Below, piece by piece: positions 27,331-34,016 of a stretch of 64,000 nt of DNA. Made by a program: the position numbers and the translations under genes. Source of the stretch: Pedobacter rhodius (GTDB taxonomy: Bacteria; Bacteroidota; Bacteroidia; Sphingobacteriales; Sphingobacteriaceae). Under the pieces are notes generated by a model. That model was not told where the DNA came from and made no database searches. It saw only the letters and a program-made list of their open reading frames with translations. Location: contig NZ_JAPWGL010000003.1 in assembly GCF_027213645.1 (NCBI RefSeq), positions 124,001-188,000 on the forward strand. Direction: 5' to 3'. Numbering within the stretch: the first letter of the stretch is position 1; every line of letters starts with the position of its first letter.

Positions 27331-28311
27331 TTATTTAATTTTAGGTACTAAAAGAACTGAAAATAAGCTTAATCCACCTAAAATTAGGATAAGCAAAAGT
27401 TGCGAAGAATGAATGATGGTTGCATAAGCAAGGCCATCCTTAAAAGCAATGGAATATAAAACCAAAGCTTGTGCAACCATCCAATGGAAAACCCCAATTC
27501 CACCCTGAACAGGTGCTATCATTGCAAAGCTTGAAAATATAAGTGCTGTAAAAGCTGCATTAAAACCTAAACCGGATGTGATTTGTATTGCTGAAAAAGC
27601 CAGGTATAGGGATAACCAGTAGAAAAACCAGATTCCGAAAGTATAAACCATAAATAATGGCTTGTTTTTTAGCTTTCTATAGGAATTAAAACCTTGTCTC
27701 AACCCGGCAAAAATTCTTAAAAATTTCTTGCTCAGCTTTTTCCTTATCAGATAGATGATTAATGTTGTTAGTATAACCATCAATATAAATAAGCCGATTA
27801 TCCAGAAATAATTTAACGATTTTATCGCATCAGCTGTGTTGCTGTAAATGGTGTGGTAAAGAAAGTCGGAAACCAATTGATATTGGAAAAGAAGCAGCAA
27901 TAACCCTGATAAAAGCAGCACCAATACATCAATTAACCTCTCCGTAATCACGGTACCGATTGAAGCAAACATCGGAACTTTTTCTGTCTTAAGAATAACC
28001 GAACAACGGCCAATTTCACCGAAACGGGGTAATGCCAGATTAGCCAGGTAACCAATAATTACGGCATGGTATGTATGCCAGAAACTTACCTTATAACTAA
28101 TGGATTGATAAAGCATCCGCCAGCGCATGGCCCGAAGCACATGTGCCAGCCAAACTGAAATGCCAGAAAATGCAACCCATAAGAAATCAGCCTGCTTAAT
28201 TTCATGCCAGATCTTATTCAAATCCTGACCTTTAAAAGCCAGGTACAAAATGCCTATTCCTATTAAAAACAGAACAATGTACTTGAACAACGATTTCAGG
28301 TCGAAAGCCAC
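27331..28311 (-). CDS. Flippase-like membrane protein, UPF0104/LPG_synthase_TM
   Basis: 326 residues with about eight to nine helices. The family pattern (lysylphosphatidylglycerol synthetase TM region) shows in LAHVLRAMRWRMLYQ, GYLANLALPRFGEIGRCSVI and ITERLIDVLVLL, and in IAPVQGGIGVFHWMVAQAL. Members are proposed lipid flippases or glycolipid-associated membrane proteins; the C-terminal synthase domain of MprF is absent. Four bases downstream of panD and probably in its transcript, a linkage without an obvious functional reason. Confidence 0.87.
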   Translation of the reverse strand: MAFDLKSLFKYIVLFLIGIGILYLAFKGQDLNKIWHEIKQADFLWVAFSGISVWLAHVLRAMRWRMLYQSISYKVSFWHTYHAVIIGYLANLALPRFGEIGRCSVILKTEKVPMFASIGTVITERLIDVLVLLLSGLLLLLFQYQLVSDFLYHTIYSNTADAIKSLNYFWIIGLFILMVILTTLIIYLIRKKLSKKFLRIFAGLRQGFNSYRKLKNKPLFMVYTFGIWFFYWLSLYLAFSAIQITSGLGFNAAFTALIFSSFAMIAPVQGGIGVFHWMVAQALVLYSIAFKDGLAYATIIHSSQLLLILILGGLSLFSVLLVPKIK

Positions 28312-28315
28312 AAAG

Positions 28316-28666
28316 TTATTTTAGCAAGTGGTTATTATCATCAGGGAAAACAAGTATCGGATTGTATTTTTTCGCTTCGTCAATTGGTAAAGAACCGTAT
28401 GACATGATAATAAGTATATCACCTAATTGAGCCAGGCGGGCAGTTGCTCCATTTAAACAGATGGTTCCGGTGCCGCGTTCGCCTTTAATTACATAAGTTT
28501 CAAAACGGGCGCCATTATTATTATTTACAATCTGCACCTTTTCATTGGCAATAATGTTAGCTGCATCCATTAAATCTTCATCAATCGTAATACTACCTAC
28601 ATAATTCAACTCGGCCTGTGTTACTTTAACACGGTGTATTTTCGATTTTAATATCGTGATAATCAT
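28316..28666 (-). CDS. panD: Aspartate 1-decarboxylase PanD
   Basis: Makes beta-alanine from L-aspartate for pantothenate and CoA synthesis. 116 residues, made as an inactive precursor that self-cleaves at Gly24-Ser25 (YVGSITID), leaving a pyruvoyl cofactor on Ser25; that site is intact. Also present: [17 protein letters not shown] and LIIMSYG, the usual C-terminal half. Lies between panC and the flippase gene on the same strand; about 140 bases of short inverted/direct repeats (ATCCATCTTACATC type) separate it from panC. Confidence 0.95.
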
Positions 28667-28802: not shown

Positions 28803-29648
28803 TCATTTAATAATCATATTATCTATCAGCCTTGTATTTCCTACTTTTGCGGCAACCAGCGCAACCAAATTACTTTCATCTTTAGACTTTGAAGGCTCCA
28901 GTGTATCACCGTTGGCAATGGTAAAGTAATCAAGTTCCACGCCTTCTACATTGTGATAAAATGATTTTGCTTGTTTTTCGAGTTCATTTAATGAATAGGA
29001 AGCGAAATTATCAGCAACAAATTGTAAAGACTTACTTAATACCAGGGCATTTTTTCTGTCTGTTTCAGATAAATGAATGTTGCGGCTGCTCATGGCCAAA
29101 CCATCATCTTCGCGGATTATCGGGCAAGTAATTATCTTAATAGGCAGTTTGAAATGAGCAAGCATATTTTTAATCATCAACACCTGCTGAAAATCTTTTT
29201 GACCGAACATAGCCACATCAGGCTCTACTGCATCAAAAAGTTTTTTTACGATTTGCGTCACTCCCTGATAATGCCCTTTTCTAAATTCCCCTTCTAATAA
29301 AAACTCTGCTTTTCCTAAATCTATATGCCAGTTTTCATCAGCACCTGATGGGTACATTTCTGCTACGTTTGGCATAAACACGCCGTTACATCCCGCATCA
29401 TTCAGCATCGCCAGATCGTGTTCTATCGGCCGGGGGTATTTTTCGAGGTCTTTAGGATCGGTAAACTGGGTTGGATTTACGAAAATACTGCATATGATGA
29501 TATCAGCATTCTCCTGAGCCAGTTTTATCAATGAAATATGACCATTGTGCAAAGCGCCCATTGTAGGCACAAGGGCTACCTTTTTACCAGAGGCCTTTAA
29601 TGGTTTTAAGTAAGCTTTAAGCGCTTCTTTGGTTTTAAATATTTCCAA
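28803..29648 (-). CDS. panC: Pantothenate synthetase PanC
   Basis: Joins pantoate and beta-alanine with ATP in CoA synthesis. 281 residues, normal length. PTMGALHNGHISLI holds the HxGH nucleotidyl-transfer motif; VNPTQFTDPKDLEKYPR, KLFDAVEPDVAMFGQKDFQQV and AMSSRNIHL are typical. Same strand as panD with which it makes two consecutive steps, so a complete beta-alanine branch is encoded here. It diverges from the glycogen-synthase-like gene. Confidence 0.96.
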   Translation of the reverse strand: MEIFKTKEALKAYLKPLKASGKKVALVPTMGALHNGHISLIKLAQENADIIICSIFVNPTQFTDPKDLEKYPRPIEHDLAMLNDAGCNGVFMPNVAEMYPSGADENWHIDLGKAEFLLEGEFRKGHYQGVTQIVKKLFDAVEPDVAMFGQKDFQQVLMIKNMLAHFKLPIKIITCPIIREDDGLAMSSRNIHLSETDRKNALVLSKSLQFVADNFASYSLNELEKQAKSFYHNVEGVELDYFTIANGDTLEPSKSKDESNLVALVAAKVGNTRLIDNMIIK

Positions 29649-29719: not shown

Positions 29720-29750
29720 TTGATAAATAGTATTATTATTCTTATCTTTG
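29720..29750 (+). promoter_or_regulatory. Promoter of GT5-like gene and DUF4270
   Basis: TTG (29720-29722), 20-base spacer, TATCTTTG (29743-29750). Full match to the consensus. Predicted leader about 35 bases before the ATG at 29792. Confidence 0.7.
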
Positions 29751-29791: not shown

Positions 29792-30622
29792 ATGGAGATG
29801 GCAAAAACGAAGCTGCTGATTGTTACACACGAGATGTCGCCTTTCCTCGAGCTTACTAAAATTTCTGAGATTACTCGCCAATTACCTCAGGCTATGCAGG
29901 AAAAAGGATTCGAAATCCGCATTCTGATGCCAAAATTCGGTAACATCAACGAGCGAAGAAATCGTTTACACGAAGTAATACGCTTATCGGGAATGAACAT
30001 CATTATTGATGATAACGATAACCCTTTAATTATTAAAGTAGCTTCCATCCCGGCTGCACGTATGCAGGTTTATTTCCTGGATAATGAAGAATATTTCCAG
30101 CGCAAACAGGTATTTGCTGATGCAAGCGGAAAATTCTTTGATGACAACGATGAGCGTACAATCTTTTTCTGCAAAGGTGCGCTTGAAACTGTTAAAAAAT
30201 TAGGCTGGGCACCAGATATTGTTCACTGCCATGGCTGGATGAGTGCTTTAGTGCCTGCTTACATTAAAACAACTTACAAAAACGACCCTACTTTTAAAAA
30301 TTCAAAAGTTGTTTATTCCATTTATGAAGGCGGTTTTACTGAAAAATTAAATGCTAACTTCTCGAAAAAAGCGGTAATGGCCAACATGACTGAAGAGGAT
30401 ACAAAAGCGTTTGAAGATGCAGATGTTAACAGCCTGCATATCGGTGCTGTAAGCCACTCAGACGCAGTAGTTTTAGCAGATGAAAACCTTGATGCAGCTG
30501 TGTTAAAATATGTTAAAGATTCAAATAAGCCAACTTTAGCTCATAACTTAACCGAAAATTTTGAAAACTTCTATACTTTTTACGAAGAAATTTCAAATGA
30601 AGAATTGGTTTCTGTTGCTTAA
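29792..30622 (+). CDS. Short glycogen-synthase-like protein
   Basis: 276 residues matching only the N-terminal (GT5, starch synthase catalytic) half of glycogen synthases; the C-terminal GT1 half is absent, and the stop is genuine. KTKLLIVTHEMSPFLELTK replaces the usual start, and the ADP-glucose loop KxGGL appears as TKISEI (about 22-27), so normal catalysis is unlikely. IRILMPKFGNINERRNR and DIVHCHGWMSAL (for DVVHxHDW) are kept. In memory similar short proteins lie beside panC in other Bacteroidota. It has its own promoter and is followed after 22 bases by the DUF4270 gene. Role unknown; a binding or regulatory role is more likely than polymer synthesis. Confidence 0.8.
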   Translation: MEMAKTKLLIVTHEMSPFLELTKISEITRQLPQAMQEKGFEIRILMPKFGNINERRNRLHEVIRLSGMNIIIDDNDNPLIIKVASIPAARMQVYFLDNEEYFQRKQVFADASGKFFDDNDERTIFFCKGALETVKKLGWAPDIVHCHGWMSALVPAYIKTTYKNDPTFKNSKVVYSIYEGGFTEKLNANFSKKAVMANMTEEDTKAFEDADVNSLHIGAVSHSDAVVLADENLDAAVLKYVKDSNKPTLAHNLTENFENFYTFYEEISNEELVSVA

Positions 30623-30644: not shown

Positions 30645-32042
30645 ATGAAATTTATAAAACAAGACTTATTAACCCTGTTGATAGGTCTTTTTCTTTTTGC
30701 ATCCTGTAAAAATCCGACAGGCGTAGGTTTAGATGTTGATTCGAATACGGCTATTCAGGGTACTTTGGTAAGCGACCAGTTGGTTAGTTCACAAACGATA
30801 AGAGAGGCTGATGTTACGACTTCAAATTTAGCGCGTTACCCGCTGGGTTATATGAACGACCCAATTTTTGGAAAAACAGAATCGAGTGTAGCTATGACCG
30901 TATTTCCGTCAGAGCTTAGCCTGGATTTTACTACTGCGACTTTAGATTCTGCCGTTTTAGTGCTTAATCTGGGTACACAATTTTATGGTGATACAACCAC
31001 ATCAAAATACAGCATCGATATTTATCAGTTAACCAATACGATTACAAAGTATAAATCATCTGATGTACAGGCACACAACAGTACCTTGCTCGGCAACTTT
31101 AACAGCAAAATTTATCCAAATACGCCTATCAAAATAACAGATGTGGTATCTGGTGGCAAGGATACGTCACGAACGGTGAAGGCACAAATCCGAATTCCTT
31201 TAAACAAAGCCTTTATTCAAAGCACGATTTTAAGCTTGCCAACTACAGGCACAACAACGAATGCCAAATTCTCAGATTACTTTAAAGGTCTTTACGCCGA
31301 GATTAATAAAACTTCCTCAACAGGTACAGGCGGAATTGCTTTTTTAGATTTCGCAAATTCAAGTTCTTATCTTCAGCTGGTTTACAAAAAAACAAATTCA
31401 TCAAGCGGTATCGATACCCTTTCAAAAAAATTTCCGATTGCTAATGCAGTCGGGCAGGTTATCACGGCTAATATTAAACACGATTATACAGGAACGCCTA
31501 TCAAAACCCAGTTAGATAACCCGACATTACAATATAATGTTACCTATTTACAGGCCCTTGCAGGTTTAAAGACTAAAATTTCTTTTCCTAACTTAAAAAA
31601 TTTCACCACTGTTTATGGCAAAGCAGTCATAAATAAAGCTGAACTAATTGTAGACTTAAGCTCGGGAACTTTTGGTTATCCGTTTAATGCCCCGCAGAGA
31701 TTGTCGCTTTATCGCTGGGATATTGCAGAACAGCCTGTTAATGTTCCCGATCATGATCAATCCAGCTCGAGTTATGCCGGAGACCCCCGGGCACTTTCTG
31801 ATGCTGTTTTCGGAGGCTACTATGATGCATTGAATAACAGATATGTTTTTAATGTTAGTGCTTATGTTCAGGATTTAATCGATAATAAAAAAATAGATTA
31901 TGGTACTTTTCTGGCGCCGACGTCTTTAACAGAATTTGAAGTATTTCCATCAGCTTCATCGGCAGCAAGAGCTGTTATCGGCACATTCGGAAACACCACA
32001 AATCGCCTGAAACTGAATATTTATTATACGAAGATTAACTAA
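30645..32042 (+). CDS. DUF4270 lipoprotein
   Basis: 465 residues. Lipoprotein signal MKFIKQDLLTLLIGLFLFASC with lipobox FASC, then KNPTGVGLDVD. The body is beta-rich and Ser/Thr-rich with no catalytic motif. The order panC / short GT5 / DUF4270 / glmS is one I know from Bacteroidota generally. Probably at the outer membrane or cell surface; function unknown. Twenty-two bases after the GT5-like gene and ended by a clear terminator. Confidence 0.85.
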   Translation: MKFIKQDLLTLLIGLFLFASCKNPTGVGLDVDSNTAIQGTLVSDQLVSSQTIREADVTTSNLARYPLGYMNDPIFGKTESSVAMTVFPSELSLDFTTATLDSAVLVLNLGTQFYGDTTTSKYSIDIYQLTNTITKYKSSDVQAHNSTLLGNFNSKIYPNTPIKITDVVSGGKDTSRTVKAQIRIPLNKAFIQSTILSLPTTGTTTNAKFSDYFKGLYAEINKTSSTGTGGIAFLDFANSSSYLQLVYKKTNSSSGIDTLSKKFPIANAVGQVITANIKHDYTGTPIKTQLDNPTLQYNVTYLQALAGLKTKISFPNLKNFTTVYGKAVINKAELIVDLSSGTFGYPFNAPQRLSLYRWDIAEQPVNVPDHDQSSSSYAGDPRALSDAVFGGYYDALNNRYVFNVSAYVQDLIDNKKIDYGTFLAPTSLTEFEVFPSASSAARAVIGTFGNTTNRLKLNIYYTKIN

Positions 32043-32177: not shown

Positions 32178-34016
32178 ATGTGTGGAATAGTAGGTTATAT
32201 AGGCTATAGAGAAGCCTGGCCAATTGTTTTAAAAGGCCTTAAAAGGTTAGAATACCGCGGGTATGATAGTGCCGGTATAGCAATAATGAACGATAATGGC
32301 CAAAGCATCTATAAAAAAGTTGGTAAGGTTGCGGCCCTGGAAGAATTTGCTGAAAACAGGGATAAGACCGGCACCATCGCAATGGGCCATACCCGTTGGG
32401 CAACTCACGGAGTACCTTCAGATAGAAATTCACACCCGCATACTTCCAATAATGATAAACTTTCCATTATTCATAATGGAATTATCGAAAACTATGCGAC
32501 ACTTAAAGAAGAACTTTCTGGCCGCGGACACGAATTTAAAAGTGATACAGATACAGAAGTTTTAATTCATTTAATTGAAGAAATCCAAAATATAGAACAA
32601 TTAGACTTACTTGAGGCCGTTCGCTTGGCGCTGAAAGAAGTTACAGGCGCTTATGCAATTGTGATTATGGACCGGGAAAATCCTGATCGCTTAATTGCTG
32701 CAAGAAAAGGTAGCCCTATGGTTATTGGTGTTGGTAAAGGTGAGTATTTTATTGCTTCTGATGCGACGCCGATAATTGAATACACCAAAAATGTAATTTA
32801 CCTGAACGACCATGAAATTGCTTTAGTTACAAAAGATGATCTTTTAGTTAAAAGATTAGATAATGTGGTTCAAACGCCTTTAATTCAGGAACTGGAACTC
32901 AAATTGGAAATGCTTGAAAAAGGCGGTTTCGAACACTTTATGCTGAAAGAAATTTACGAACAGCCCAGATCAATCAGAGATTGTATGCGTGGACGTATTT
33001 ATCCTGCAGAAGGTAAGGTGCAGTTAGGAGGAATTAAAGAGTTTATAGAAAAACTTAAAAATATCGACAGAATTATCATAGTTGCCTGTGGTACATCATG
33101 GCATGCGGGTTTAGTTGGCGAATATTTAATCGAAGAGTATGCCCGAATTCCCGTAGAAGTTGAATATGCATCAGAATTCAGGTATCGCAATCCGATTATC
33201 ACGGAAAAAGATGTTGTAATTGCCATTTCTCAATCCGGAGAAACAGCAGATACAATGGCTGCAATAGAAATGGCAAAAGAACGTGGCGCTACCATATTCG
33301 GTATTTGTAATGTGGCGGGCGCATCTATACCAAGGTTGAGCCATGCAGGGGTTTACACCCATGCAGGACCAGAAATTGGTGTTGCTTCTACTAAAGCATT
33401 TACGGCGCAGGTTACCGTTTTAACACTGATAGCCTTTTACATGGCACAGCAAAAAGGAACAATAACCCAATCAAAATTAATAAGCCTTTTAACCGAGTTA
33501 GACAGCATTCCGGAAAAGATTGAGGTGGCATTGGAGTCTAACGATATCATTAAGGAAGTTGCTTCAAAAATAAAAGATTCCCGAAACTGTTTATTCCTGG
33601 GAAGAGGCAGTGGTTTTCCGGTGGCCTTAGAGGGTGCGCTAAAGCTTAAGGAGATATCTTATATTCATGCGGAAGGTTATCCTGCTGCCGAAATGAAACA
33701 TGGCCCTATTGCTTTGATTGACGAAGAAATGCCGGTGGTATTTATTGCTACTCAGAATTCGTCCTACGAAAAAGTAATCAGCAATATTCAGGAAGTTAAA
33801 GCCCGTAAAGGCAAAGTAATTGCCATTGTTACTCAAGGCGATACCGAGGTTAATAAAATGGCAGATTATTGTATTGAAATTCCCGATTCGGATGAGGCTT
33901 TTCTACCATTATTAGCAACGATTCCATTACAGCTTTTATCTTATCATATCGCTGTAATGCGTGGCTGTAACGTAGATCAACCAAGAAACTTAGCAAAGTC
34001 GGTTACTGTAGAATAA
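32178..34016 (+). CDS. glmS: Glutamine-fructose-6-phosphate aminotransferase
   Basis: Makes glucosamine-6-phosphate from fructose-6-phosphate and glutamine, the first step toward peptidoglycan and lipid A sugars. 612 residues: N-terminal glutaminase domain with catalytic Cys2 (MCGIVGYIG) and GLKRLEYRGYDSAG, HTRWATHG; then two SIS isomerase domains (about 290-430 and 460-605) with CGTSWHAG, SQSGETADTM, and the C-terminal SVTVE. No frameshift or unusual residue. No glmS ribozyme in the short leader; a palindromic promoter is present instead. Confidence 0.97.
   Translation: MCGIVGYIGYREAWPIVLKGLKRLEYRGYDSAGIAIMNDNGQSIYKKVGKVAALEEFAENRDKTGTIAMGHTRWATHGVPSDRNSHPHTSNNDKLSIIHNGIIENYATLKEELSGRGHEFKSDTDTEVLIHLIEEIQNIEQLDLLEAVRLALKEVTGAYAIVIMDRENPDRLIAARKGSPMVIGVGKGEYFIASDATPIIEYTKNVIYLNDHEIALVTKDDLLVKRLDNVVQTPLIQELELKLEMLEKGGFEHFMLKEIYEQPRSIRDCMRGRIYPAEGKVQLGGIKEFIEKLKNIDRIIIVACGTSWHAGLVGEYLIEEYARIPVEVEYASEFRYRNPIITEKDVVIAISQSGETADTMAAIEMAKERGATIFGICNVAGASIPRLSHAGVYTHAGPEIGVASTKAFTAQVTVLTLIAFYMAQQKGTITQSKLISLLTELDSIPEKIEVALESNDIIKEVASKIKDSRNCLFLGRGSGFPVALEGALKLKEISYIHAEGYPAAEMKHGPIALIDEEMPVVFIATQNSSYEKVISNIQEVKARKGKVIAIVTQGDTEVNKMADYCIEIPDSDEAFLPLLATIPLQLLSYHIAVMRGCNVDQPRNLAKSVTVE

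Follow-up and report, generated by a model that had tools for sequence, protein, structure and literature searches.

The locus and its encoded protein

The gene examined here, referred to as GT5s, lies at positions 29792..30622 (+ strand) of the window, i.e., the whole 64,000-nucleotide stretch of Pedobacter rhodius DNA that was analysed, and encodes a protein of 276 aa. Its N-terminus (MEMAKTKLLIV...) shows no signal peptide as judged by eye. The divergent neighbour panC (28803..29648, -), panD (28316..28666, -) and a gene for an LPG_synthase_TM/flippase-like protein (27331..28311, -) were recognized by their domain matches. In the other direction, the DUF4270 lipoprotein gene bamH (30645..32042, +; assigned by PF14092 and a structure match) begins 22 nt downstream of GT5s with no terminator-like site between them, and is followed by glmS (32178..34016, +; ORF and domain matches).

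Glyco_transf_5 (PF08323) is the sole Pfam family to exceed its cut-off (184 bits, residues 7-232), and the protein does not reach the NCBIfam GlgA cut-offs (190 bits at best versus 754; 126 versus 328 for TIGR02095). A second GT5 protein, a full-length GlgA of 480 aa, is encoded on another contig of the same genome. The closest solved structures to GT5s are starch/glycogen synthases (6gne, E 2.7e-9). Its AlphaFold2 model, built from 49 sequences, is of moderate confidence (pLDDT 69.8, pTM 0.78); aligned with the starch synthase 6gne by VIA-align, it gives a Z of 20.4 and an rmsd of 3.0 over 227 residues, and Z values against 2qzs, 1rzu and 6gne are 17-20. A preliminary description, made from the sequence alone, had proposed a conserved fold, and the model bears this out. 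By its ORF, PF08323 match, fold and dN/dS ratios, GT5s is one half of a GT5 (glycogen-synthase-type) glycosyltransferase, a real and strongly conserved open reading frame.

Constraint and distribution

The dN/dS ratios of GT5s against 10 Pedobacter loci range from 0.024 to 0.058, which speaks against a pseudogene. At 80% coverage, all four of GT5, BamH, PanC and GlmS could be identified in 49 of 80 Pedobacter loci; across these 49, the mean identity to the window is 89.7% for GT5s, 89.9% for GlmS, 76.9% for PanC and 59.2% for BamH, with GT5s exceeding PanC in every locus and GlmS in 23. PanD averages 93.2% (48 Pedobacter loci).

Of the 296 genomes surveyed across the phylum, 294 contain a GT5 match (any GT5 relative, full-length proteins included), and both misses (G169 and G225) belong to a single family, f17, which we take to be the green sulphur bacteria. 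In the survey of the class Bacteroidia a match occurs in 379 of 395 genomes and in 337 of the 339 near-complete ones, the two near-complete misses (G378 and G408) being drafts of 300-410 contigs. The 379 include two genomes (G372 and G543) with weak matches only (E 1.4e-7 and 1.5e-5), which may be other GT5 genes, and one (G511) whose best match is a fragment at a contig edge. In both surveys, match lengths are known among the matches listed.

A genome of 489,825 bp in one contig (G317) still encodes a short GT5 protein, 41% identical to that of the window, with the signature block described below still recognizable. The neighbours there are a gyrB/parE-like gene and one for an M42 peptidase, with neither panC nor bamH next door. 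A phage origin was also considered and rejected; a scan of viral contigs with GT5s peptide patterns gave no encoded relative. Literature searches of open-access texts found no account of GT5s as a pseudo-glycosyltransferase, and gave nothing on essentiality under the name glycogen synthase or in Blattabacterium.

Loss of the donor loop and catalytic residues

The catalytic residues were scored on an alignment of 28 GlgA paralogues of the phylum and E. coli GlgA, whose numbering is used here, with 45 Bacteroidia short forms (the window protein among them) and 17 short forms from outside the class. The GlgA residues scored outside the KTGGL motif are taken to be catalytic. All 28 paralogues retain K15, G17, G18, D21, D137, H161, N162, R300, K305 and E377. 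K15 survives in only 3 of the 45 Bacteroidia short forms, G17 and G18 in none, D21 in 7, D137 in 4, H161 in 1 and N162 in 16; the corresponding numbers for the 17 other short forms are 4, 0, 7, 6, 5 and 4. The C-domain residues R300, K305 and E377 occur in no short form of either group (0 of 45 and 0 of 17).

In the window protein, E20, T22 and K23 stand for K15, G17 and G18, G148 for D137, and Y178 for H161. The degenerate donor loop comprises residues 20-26 (ELTKISE; 29849..29869, +; from alignment and translation), aligned with K15-D21 of E. coli GlgA. KTGGL is given as the ADP-glucose motif in PMC6156364. The preliminary description had read KISEI as the KxGGL loop; the alignment instead puts KTGGL at E20-L-T-K-I24, and KISEI starts three residues later.

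On the best reading of these alignments, GT5s would be a catalytically dead GT5 derivative, best described as a pseudo-glycosyltransferase. Identity as a glycogen synthase was rejected, as the catalytic residues and the C-domain are lost; glycogen synthesis had already seemed the less natural guess in the preliminary description, and the residues agree.

The C-terminal helix

GT-B enzymes bind the nucleotide sugar mainly through the C-domain, and their final helix crosses back onto the N-domain. The C-terminal helix of GT5s (residues 257-268; 30560..30595, +; from the model and alignments) probably corresponds to the crossover helix with which full-length GT5 enzymes end. Most of the short forms shown carry a YxxFY-like pattern in their end helix, matching the YxxLY found in the final helix of the full-length proteins. 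Y264 of the window protein aligns with E. coli Y473 and is kept in 98% of the short Bacteroidia rows, 100% of the other short rows and 100% of 15 motif-intact full-length rows, a match that is support and not proof, because aligners may draw chain ends together. The motif-intact set leaves out the degenerate L182, L188, L197 and L198 and keeps rows with single changes (e.g., L181, L190 and L199); L183 is of the short type and was counted among the short forms.

VIA-align likewise runs the GT5s model into the end of the GlgA chains. Since the terminal helix seems to be kept and the structural alignment reaches the GlgA chain end, the C-domain looks to have been excised from inside the gene, leaving the N-domain with its capping helix. 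A simple 3' truncation was rejected on account of the seemingly retained helix. The earlier statement that the GT5 half alone is present fails to account for this helix. At locus L175 a second, independent removal of the C-domain may have taken place.

The retained N-domain fold and terminal helix would suit a split glycosyltransferase, in which this half pairs in trans with a separate C-domain protein, on the model of the eukaryotic pair Alg13/Alg14. Such an arrangement is improbable: K15, G17, G18, D137 and H161, intact in GlgA, are lost from the N-domain itself in nearly all short Bacteroidia forms, so that a partner in trans could hardly restore a GT5 active site.

Relation to glycogen synthesis

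A second full-length GT5 (>180 bits) occurs in 8 of 44 Bacteroidia genomes (G000, G002, G007, G012, G021, G037, G099 and G122), and a second GT5-domain protein of 424-602 aa, at 52-72 bits, in 7 of the 44 (G049, G230, G318, G322, G348, G459 and G534). For 29 of the 44, the GT5 search, outside which GT3-type synthases fall, gave no second match above 40 bits; GT5-type glycogen synthesis therefore cannot be the general reason for keeping GT5s.

In this regard, plant STARCH SYNTHASE5 (SS5) is a single, non-catalytic GT5 domain that lacks the GT1 half and probably acts via protein contacts, in starch granule initiation in the plastid. GT5s, with its lost catalytic residues, resembles SS5 in having a GT5 domain without a GT1 half, whereas the plastid role of SS5 is unrelated to the outer membrane. 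A regulator of glycogen synthesis or accessory of GlgA, in the manner of SS5, would accord with the common fold class, with this precedent and with the second GT5-domain protein found in 15 of the 44 genomes, but the 29 genomes lacking such a match make this role very improbable.

In PMC10797578, BT_4307 is cited as a potential glycogen synthase, and its presence as a sign that B. thetaiotaomicron stores glycogen; from its number, adjoining that of bamH BT4306, we infer that BT_4307 is a gene of the GT5s family. A 'glycogen synthase' under raised selection in P. gingivalis (OG0000702 in PMC10394638) may also belong to this family.

A shift of selection to residues 41-105

Residues 41-105 (29912..30106, +; from alignments) form a signature block, the most conserved part of the short family, which includes R43, R55, H60, R64, K82 and Q92. 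Mean pairwise identity over residues 8-40, 41-105 and 106-179 is 0.45, 0.72 and 0.58, respectively, among the Bacteroidia short forms, in which this block is the highest of four, and 0.46, 0.65 and 0.46 among the other short forms. The same segments give 0.65, 0.44 and 0.59 in the 15 motif-intact full-length forms, and 0.58-0.70, 0.33-0.44 and 0.49-0.58 in three GlgA subclades, in which block 41-105 is the lowest of the three computed. By these identities the block is thus under the strongest constraint in the short forms only. GT5s shares with GlgA the N-domain fold, ancestry and terminal helix, and differs from it in the absence of the C-domain and in this shift of constraint.

All 62 short forms have R43, R55, H60, R64 and K82, and 61 of them have Q92; each of the six occurs in all 45 Bacteroidia short forms and in 16-17 of the 17 others. 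In the same order, the six residues are found in 15, 14, 13, 15, 10 and 15 of the 15 motif-intact full-length forms, and in 3, 4, 1, 1, 1 and 1 of the 28 GlgA paralogues. R43, R55, R64 and Q92 had thus become invariant or almost invariant before the short forms arose. Only some of the face residues would predate the catalytic loss, since the block as a whole is the least conserved part of residues 8-179 in the motif-intact full-length forms (0.44) and K82 occurs in 10 of 15. The AlphaFold2 model places helix 52-66 and strands 70-96 in the block, and its residues suggest a basic face.

These segment identities bear also on the proposal, made in the preliminary description, of a regulator that senses a sugar nucleotide. 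GT5 ancestry, the proximity of glmS in Bacteroidia and the gmhB-like gene of deep lineages would be in keeping with a sensor of this kind, but the donor-binding C-domain is absent, the KTGGL loop of the N-domain is lost, and residues 8-40 are the least conserved part of 8-179 in the short Bacteroidia forms (0.45). With the donor site missing, sugar-nucleotide sensing is disfavoured and we consider it unlikely.

The bamH neighbour

The DUF4270 protein of the window matches PF14092 (152 bits) and the solved BamH chain 9n2d_C (E 1.8e-8), and it is the only BamH candidate in the Pedobacter rhodius genome (one match by profile and PF14092). It remains below the NCBIfam equivalog cut-off (84 bits versus 420 for NF053686, BamH_fj); the two NCBIfam BamH models represent Flavobacterium- and Bacteroides-type proteins, judged from their names. 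Its lipoprotein cysteine, C21, is invariant in 30 Bacteroidia BamH rows. By these matches, the gene is a BamH homologue. After the lipobox cysteine the window protein reads CKNPTG, without acidic residues; PMC12578637 describes acidic residues after the cysteine in B. thetaiotaomicron BAM lipoproteins.

BamH, described in 2025, belongs to the Bacteroidota BAM complex as one of its surface lipoprotein subunits (Fjoh_0823 in PMC12611786; BT4306 and PGN_1735 in PMC12578637). Membership of the complex is reported for relatives only, and the window protein is a putative member by homology. A GT5-like partner goes unmentioned in the available portions of the two papers, and neither main text contains the word glycogen.

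Six proteins from the BamH slot were scanned with NCBIfam: L125 (568 > 420, BamH_fj) and L132 (782 > 670, BamH_bt) pass, L127, L146 and L153 match below the cut-off, and L171 gives no match. The one BamG candidate scanned passes its equivalog cut-off (256 > 250). Our BamH profile was built iteratively on the same loci and its E-values include training rows; the Pfam and NCBIfam checks are independent. Profiles of 28 bamH/BamG-like pairs from outside the class recover 9hjm_G (E 1.9e-14) and, at only 0.0074, 9his_G on the BamH side, and 9n2d_B (2.6e-70) and 9hiv_F (3.7e-77) on the BamG side. The BamH-side profile also hits myostatin propeptide chains weakly (E 2e-4 to 5e-4), which we take as chance or a shared fold.

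Gene neighbourhood across the phylum

Neighbours were counted by six-frame profile searches at 80 loci, chosen by hand from the listed matches (roughly one for each family outside Bacteroidia, and a range of families within); bamH was counted on the same strand within 900 nt downstream, and glmS within 3.5 kb. The bamH gene is adjacent at 40 of 44 Bacteroidia loci, 15 of 17 short-form loci of other classes and 14 of 19 full-length loci. A divergent panC next door (36 of 44) and a downstream glmS (31 of 44) are confined to Bacteroidia, with none at the 17 or the 19 other loci. Linkage of both genes is therefore at class level only, and an old tie of GT5s to panC was rejected. The preliminary description had named a panC/DUF4270/glmS set across Bacteroidota, which holds within Bacteroidia and, for panC and glmS, not beyond. 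Its steadiest member is the DUF4270 gene, in a position that is not random; random gene order in relatives, which that description had named as counting against it, is not what we found.

Among the full-length loci without adjacent bamH, L193 and L198 hold a lipoprotein gene and then a BamG-like gene in the slot, beyond the reach of the profile, L184 has bamH 2.3 kb off, and L182 and L188 have none. Outside the class, the BamG-like gene mostly comes after bamH. At L161 and L171 a further gene comes next, its product measuring some 446-449 aa and, in L171, containing TPR repeats, and several other non-Bacteroidia loci have ORFs of similar size at the same place.

By Pfam alone, DUF4270 was detected in 16 of 55 genomes. 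These comprise 13 of 14 genomes of the class, in 11 of which it lies beside the GT5 gene (the exceptions are G002 and G007), and three from outside it, beside the GT5 gene in G013 and G179 and away from it in G231. In G002, G007, G096 and G231, BamH is encoded elsewhere in the genome, and in the last three a BamG match adjoins the distant BamH.

A gmhB-like phosphatase gene (190-233 aa) directly follows GT5 in 10 of the full-length loci shown; the sole such protein scanned, that of L185, reaches 170 bits with PRK08942 against a cut-off of 178. Five loci outside the window's class (L185, L186, L190, L191 and L195) have the cluster GT5 - gmhB-like - bamH - bamG. Clusters of this kind suggest an old tie of heptose/LPS-type chemistry to BAM genes.

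The BamH and BamG profiles gave no match in G317 (0.49 Mb) and G534 (about 1.2 Mb), both of which keep the short protein, an absence by profile that is not proof. Nor did they match in three f17 genomes of one genus (those of L182 and L188, and G169), two of which (L182 and L188) encode a degenerate GT5 of full length. The function of GT5s is therefore not strictly tied to BAM. The preliminary description had also proposed an adaptor for the DUF4270 lipoprotein. This idea is weakened by G317 and G534, by the lack of a signal peptide in GT5s as judged by eye, and by mature BamH being, in contrast to GT5s, an extracellular lipoprotein; service as a dedicated BamH adaptor is unlikely to explain the protein fully.

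The same genomes lend themselves to a reading as general cytosolic housekeeping, in which the conserved face would bind an anionic ligand (RNA, nucleotide, CoA or lipid precursor) or a core protein, and adjacency to bamH would be a relic of an ancestral operon and shared promoter. The short protein is kept in the 0.49-Mb genome and in G534, and a degenerate full-length one in two f17 genomes, with no BamGH found; moreover, GT5s evolves as slowly as GlmS, with BamH at 59%. We nevertheless regard this reading as doubtful, since the linkage to bamH persists from class to class, whereas panC, glmS and the gmhB-like gene are gained or lost, which is more than would be expected of inertia, and a failure to detect BamGH by profile is not proof of absence for such fast-evolving proteins.

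Phylogeny and order of events

The N-domains of 114 sequences were placed in a FastTree tree with E. coli GlgA as the root, in which the support of many inner nodes is low. The GT5 proteins of the 81 loci studied fall in one clade of 85 (support 0.82), together with 4 close relatives whose membership is by sequence and not by neighbourhood; none of the 28 GlgA paralogues falls inside. The short forms are nested among full-length forms. Most of the deeper full-length forms have an intact motif. L182 and L188, a degenerate full-length pair with RSADDHNNNQE at the eleven scored positions, join the main short clade with support 1.0, and L197 and L198 are degenerate elsewhere in the tree. Given these separate positions, loss of the catalytic residues happened more than once, with the gene itself retained.

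L182 and L188 (family f17) have a full-length GT5 with a decayed donor loop and a gmhB-like gene next to it, and no BamH/BamG profile match. This pair is possibly a living intermediate. The L175 locus (genome G172), at which a GT5 gene of 288 aa is followed by a 200-aa ORF and then bamH, stands apart from the other short forms in the tree.

The full-length bam-linked GT5 proteins of deep Bacteroidota (e.g., L185 and L189) belong to the same clade as GT5s and have the same bamH/bamG neighbourhood. They differ from it in their length of about 490 aa, in a mostly intact catalytic motif and, often, in a gmhB-like gene before bamH. Since full-length GT5 genes occupy the same place in deeper lineages, the bamH link is older than the catalytic loss.

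A promoter-like site

A Bacteroidota-type promoter-like site (-33/-7 like) with the pattern TTG-N20-TATCTTTG was located upstream of GT5s by motif scan (29720..29750, +). At exact spacing the motif occurs 3 times in the window against 2.46 expected, so the window instance alone is no evidence. With a spacer of 18-22 and within 250 nt upstream of the GT5 gene, it recurs at 69 of 80 loci in Pedobacter and at 18 of 40 elsewhere in Bacteroidia, compared with 1.9% of random stretches. It was also found upstream at 5 of 20 loci of the full-length group (1.8% in random stretches) and, under the same limits, at 0 of 16 short-form loci outside the class. The full promoter of the preliminary description is thus backed by recurrence in Pedobacter and other Bacteroidia and not by the window instance itself.

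In PMC12611786, the -33 and -7 motifs are named for the promoter of fjoh_0824, and an inducible promoter was built from the 100 bp upstream of that gene. From gene numbers and order, we infer that fjoh_0824 is the GT5-like gene of the present family.

A proposed role in the cell envelope

The catalytic parts of GT5s are lost, yet the gene is under strong selection and usually has a BAM gene as its neighbour; it therefore probably has a new, unstudied function in the cell. Overall, we favour a dead GT5 derivative that acts as a non-catalytic cytosolic scaffold or regulator, probably in envelope biogenesis, and put the probability of this explanation at about one half.

The comparisons support an ancestral full-length GT5 protein that would have been encoded beside bamH, in many deep lineages together with a gmhB-like gene and bamG. 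They likewise support a course of events in the lineage of the window in which the donor loop and catalytic residues decayed and the C-domain was removed, while the N-domain and the apparent capping helix stayed. As a scaffold or regulator, GT5s would act in the cytosol without catalysis, through block 41-105 (helix 52-66 and the strands that follow). More speculatively, it might tie the supply of envelope components, such as LPS or surface-lipoprotein precursors, to BAM-dependent assembly of the outer membrane, and this might be why it is encoded just upstream of bamH.

In its most specific form, which we offer tentatively, the proposal is that a nearly universal but so far overlooked cytosolic pseudo-glycosyltransferase of the Bacteroidota steers construction of the outer membrane: its conserved face would bind an envelope precursor pathway or an export factor and adjust BAM or surface-lipoprotein output, a function that a full-length glycosyltransferase, its gene clustered with the gmhB-like gene, bamH and bamG, might first have had alongside its catalytic one.

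A gene that is nearly universal in Bacteroidia (337 of the 339 near-complete genomes sampled) looks like a glycogen synthase and is probably a misnamed core gene. The GT5 family to which it belongs has lost its catalytic residues repeatedly while the gene was kept, with intermediates still alive. If GT5s is truly an envelope factor, it would point to a cytosolic arm of the BAM system lately described in Bacteroidota, and would make testable how the phylum coordinates the building of its outer membrane.
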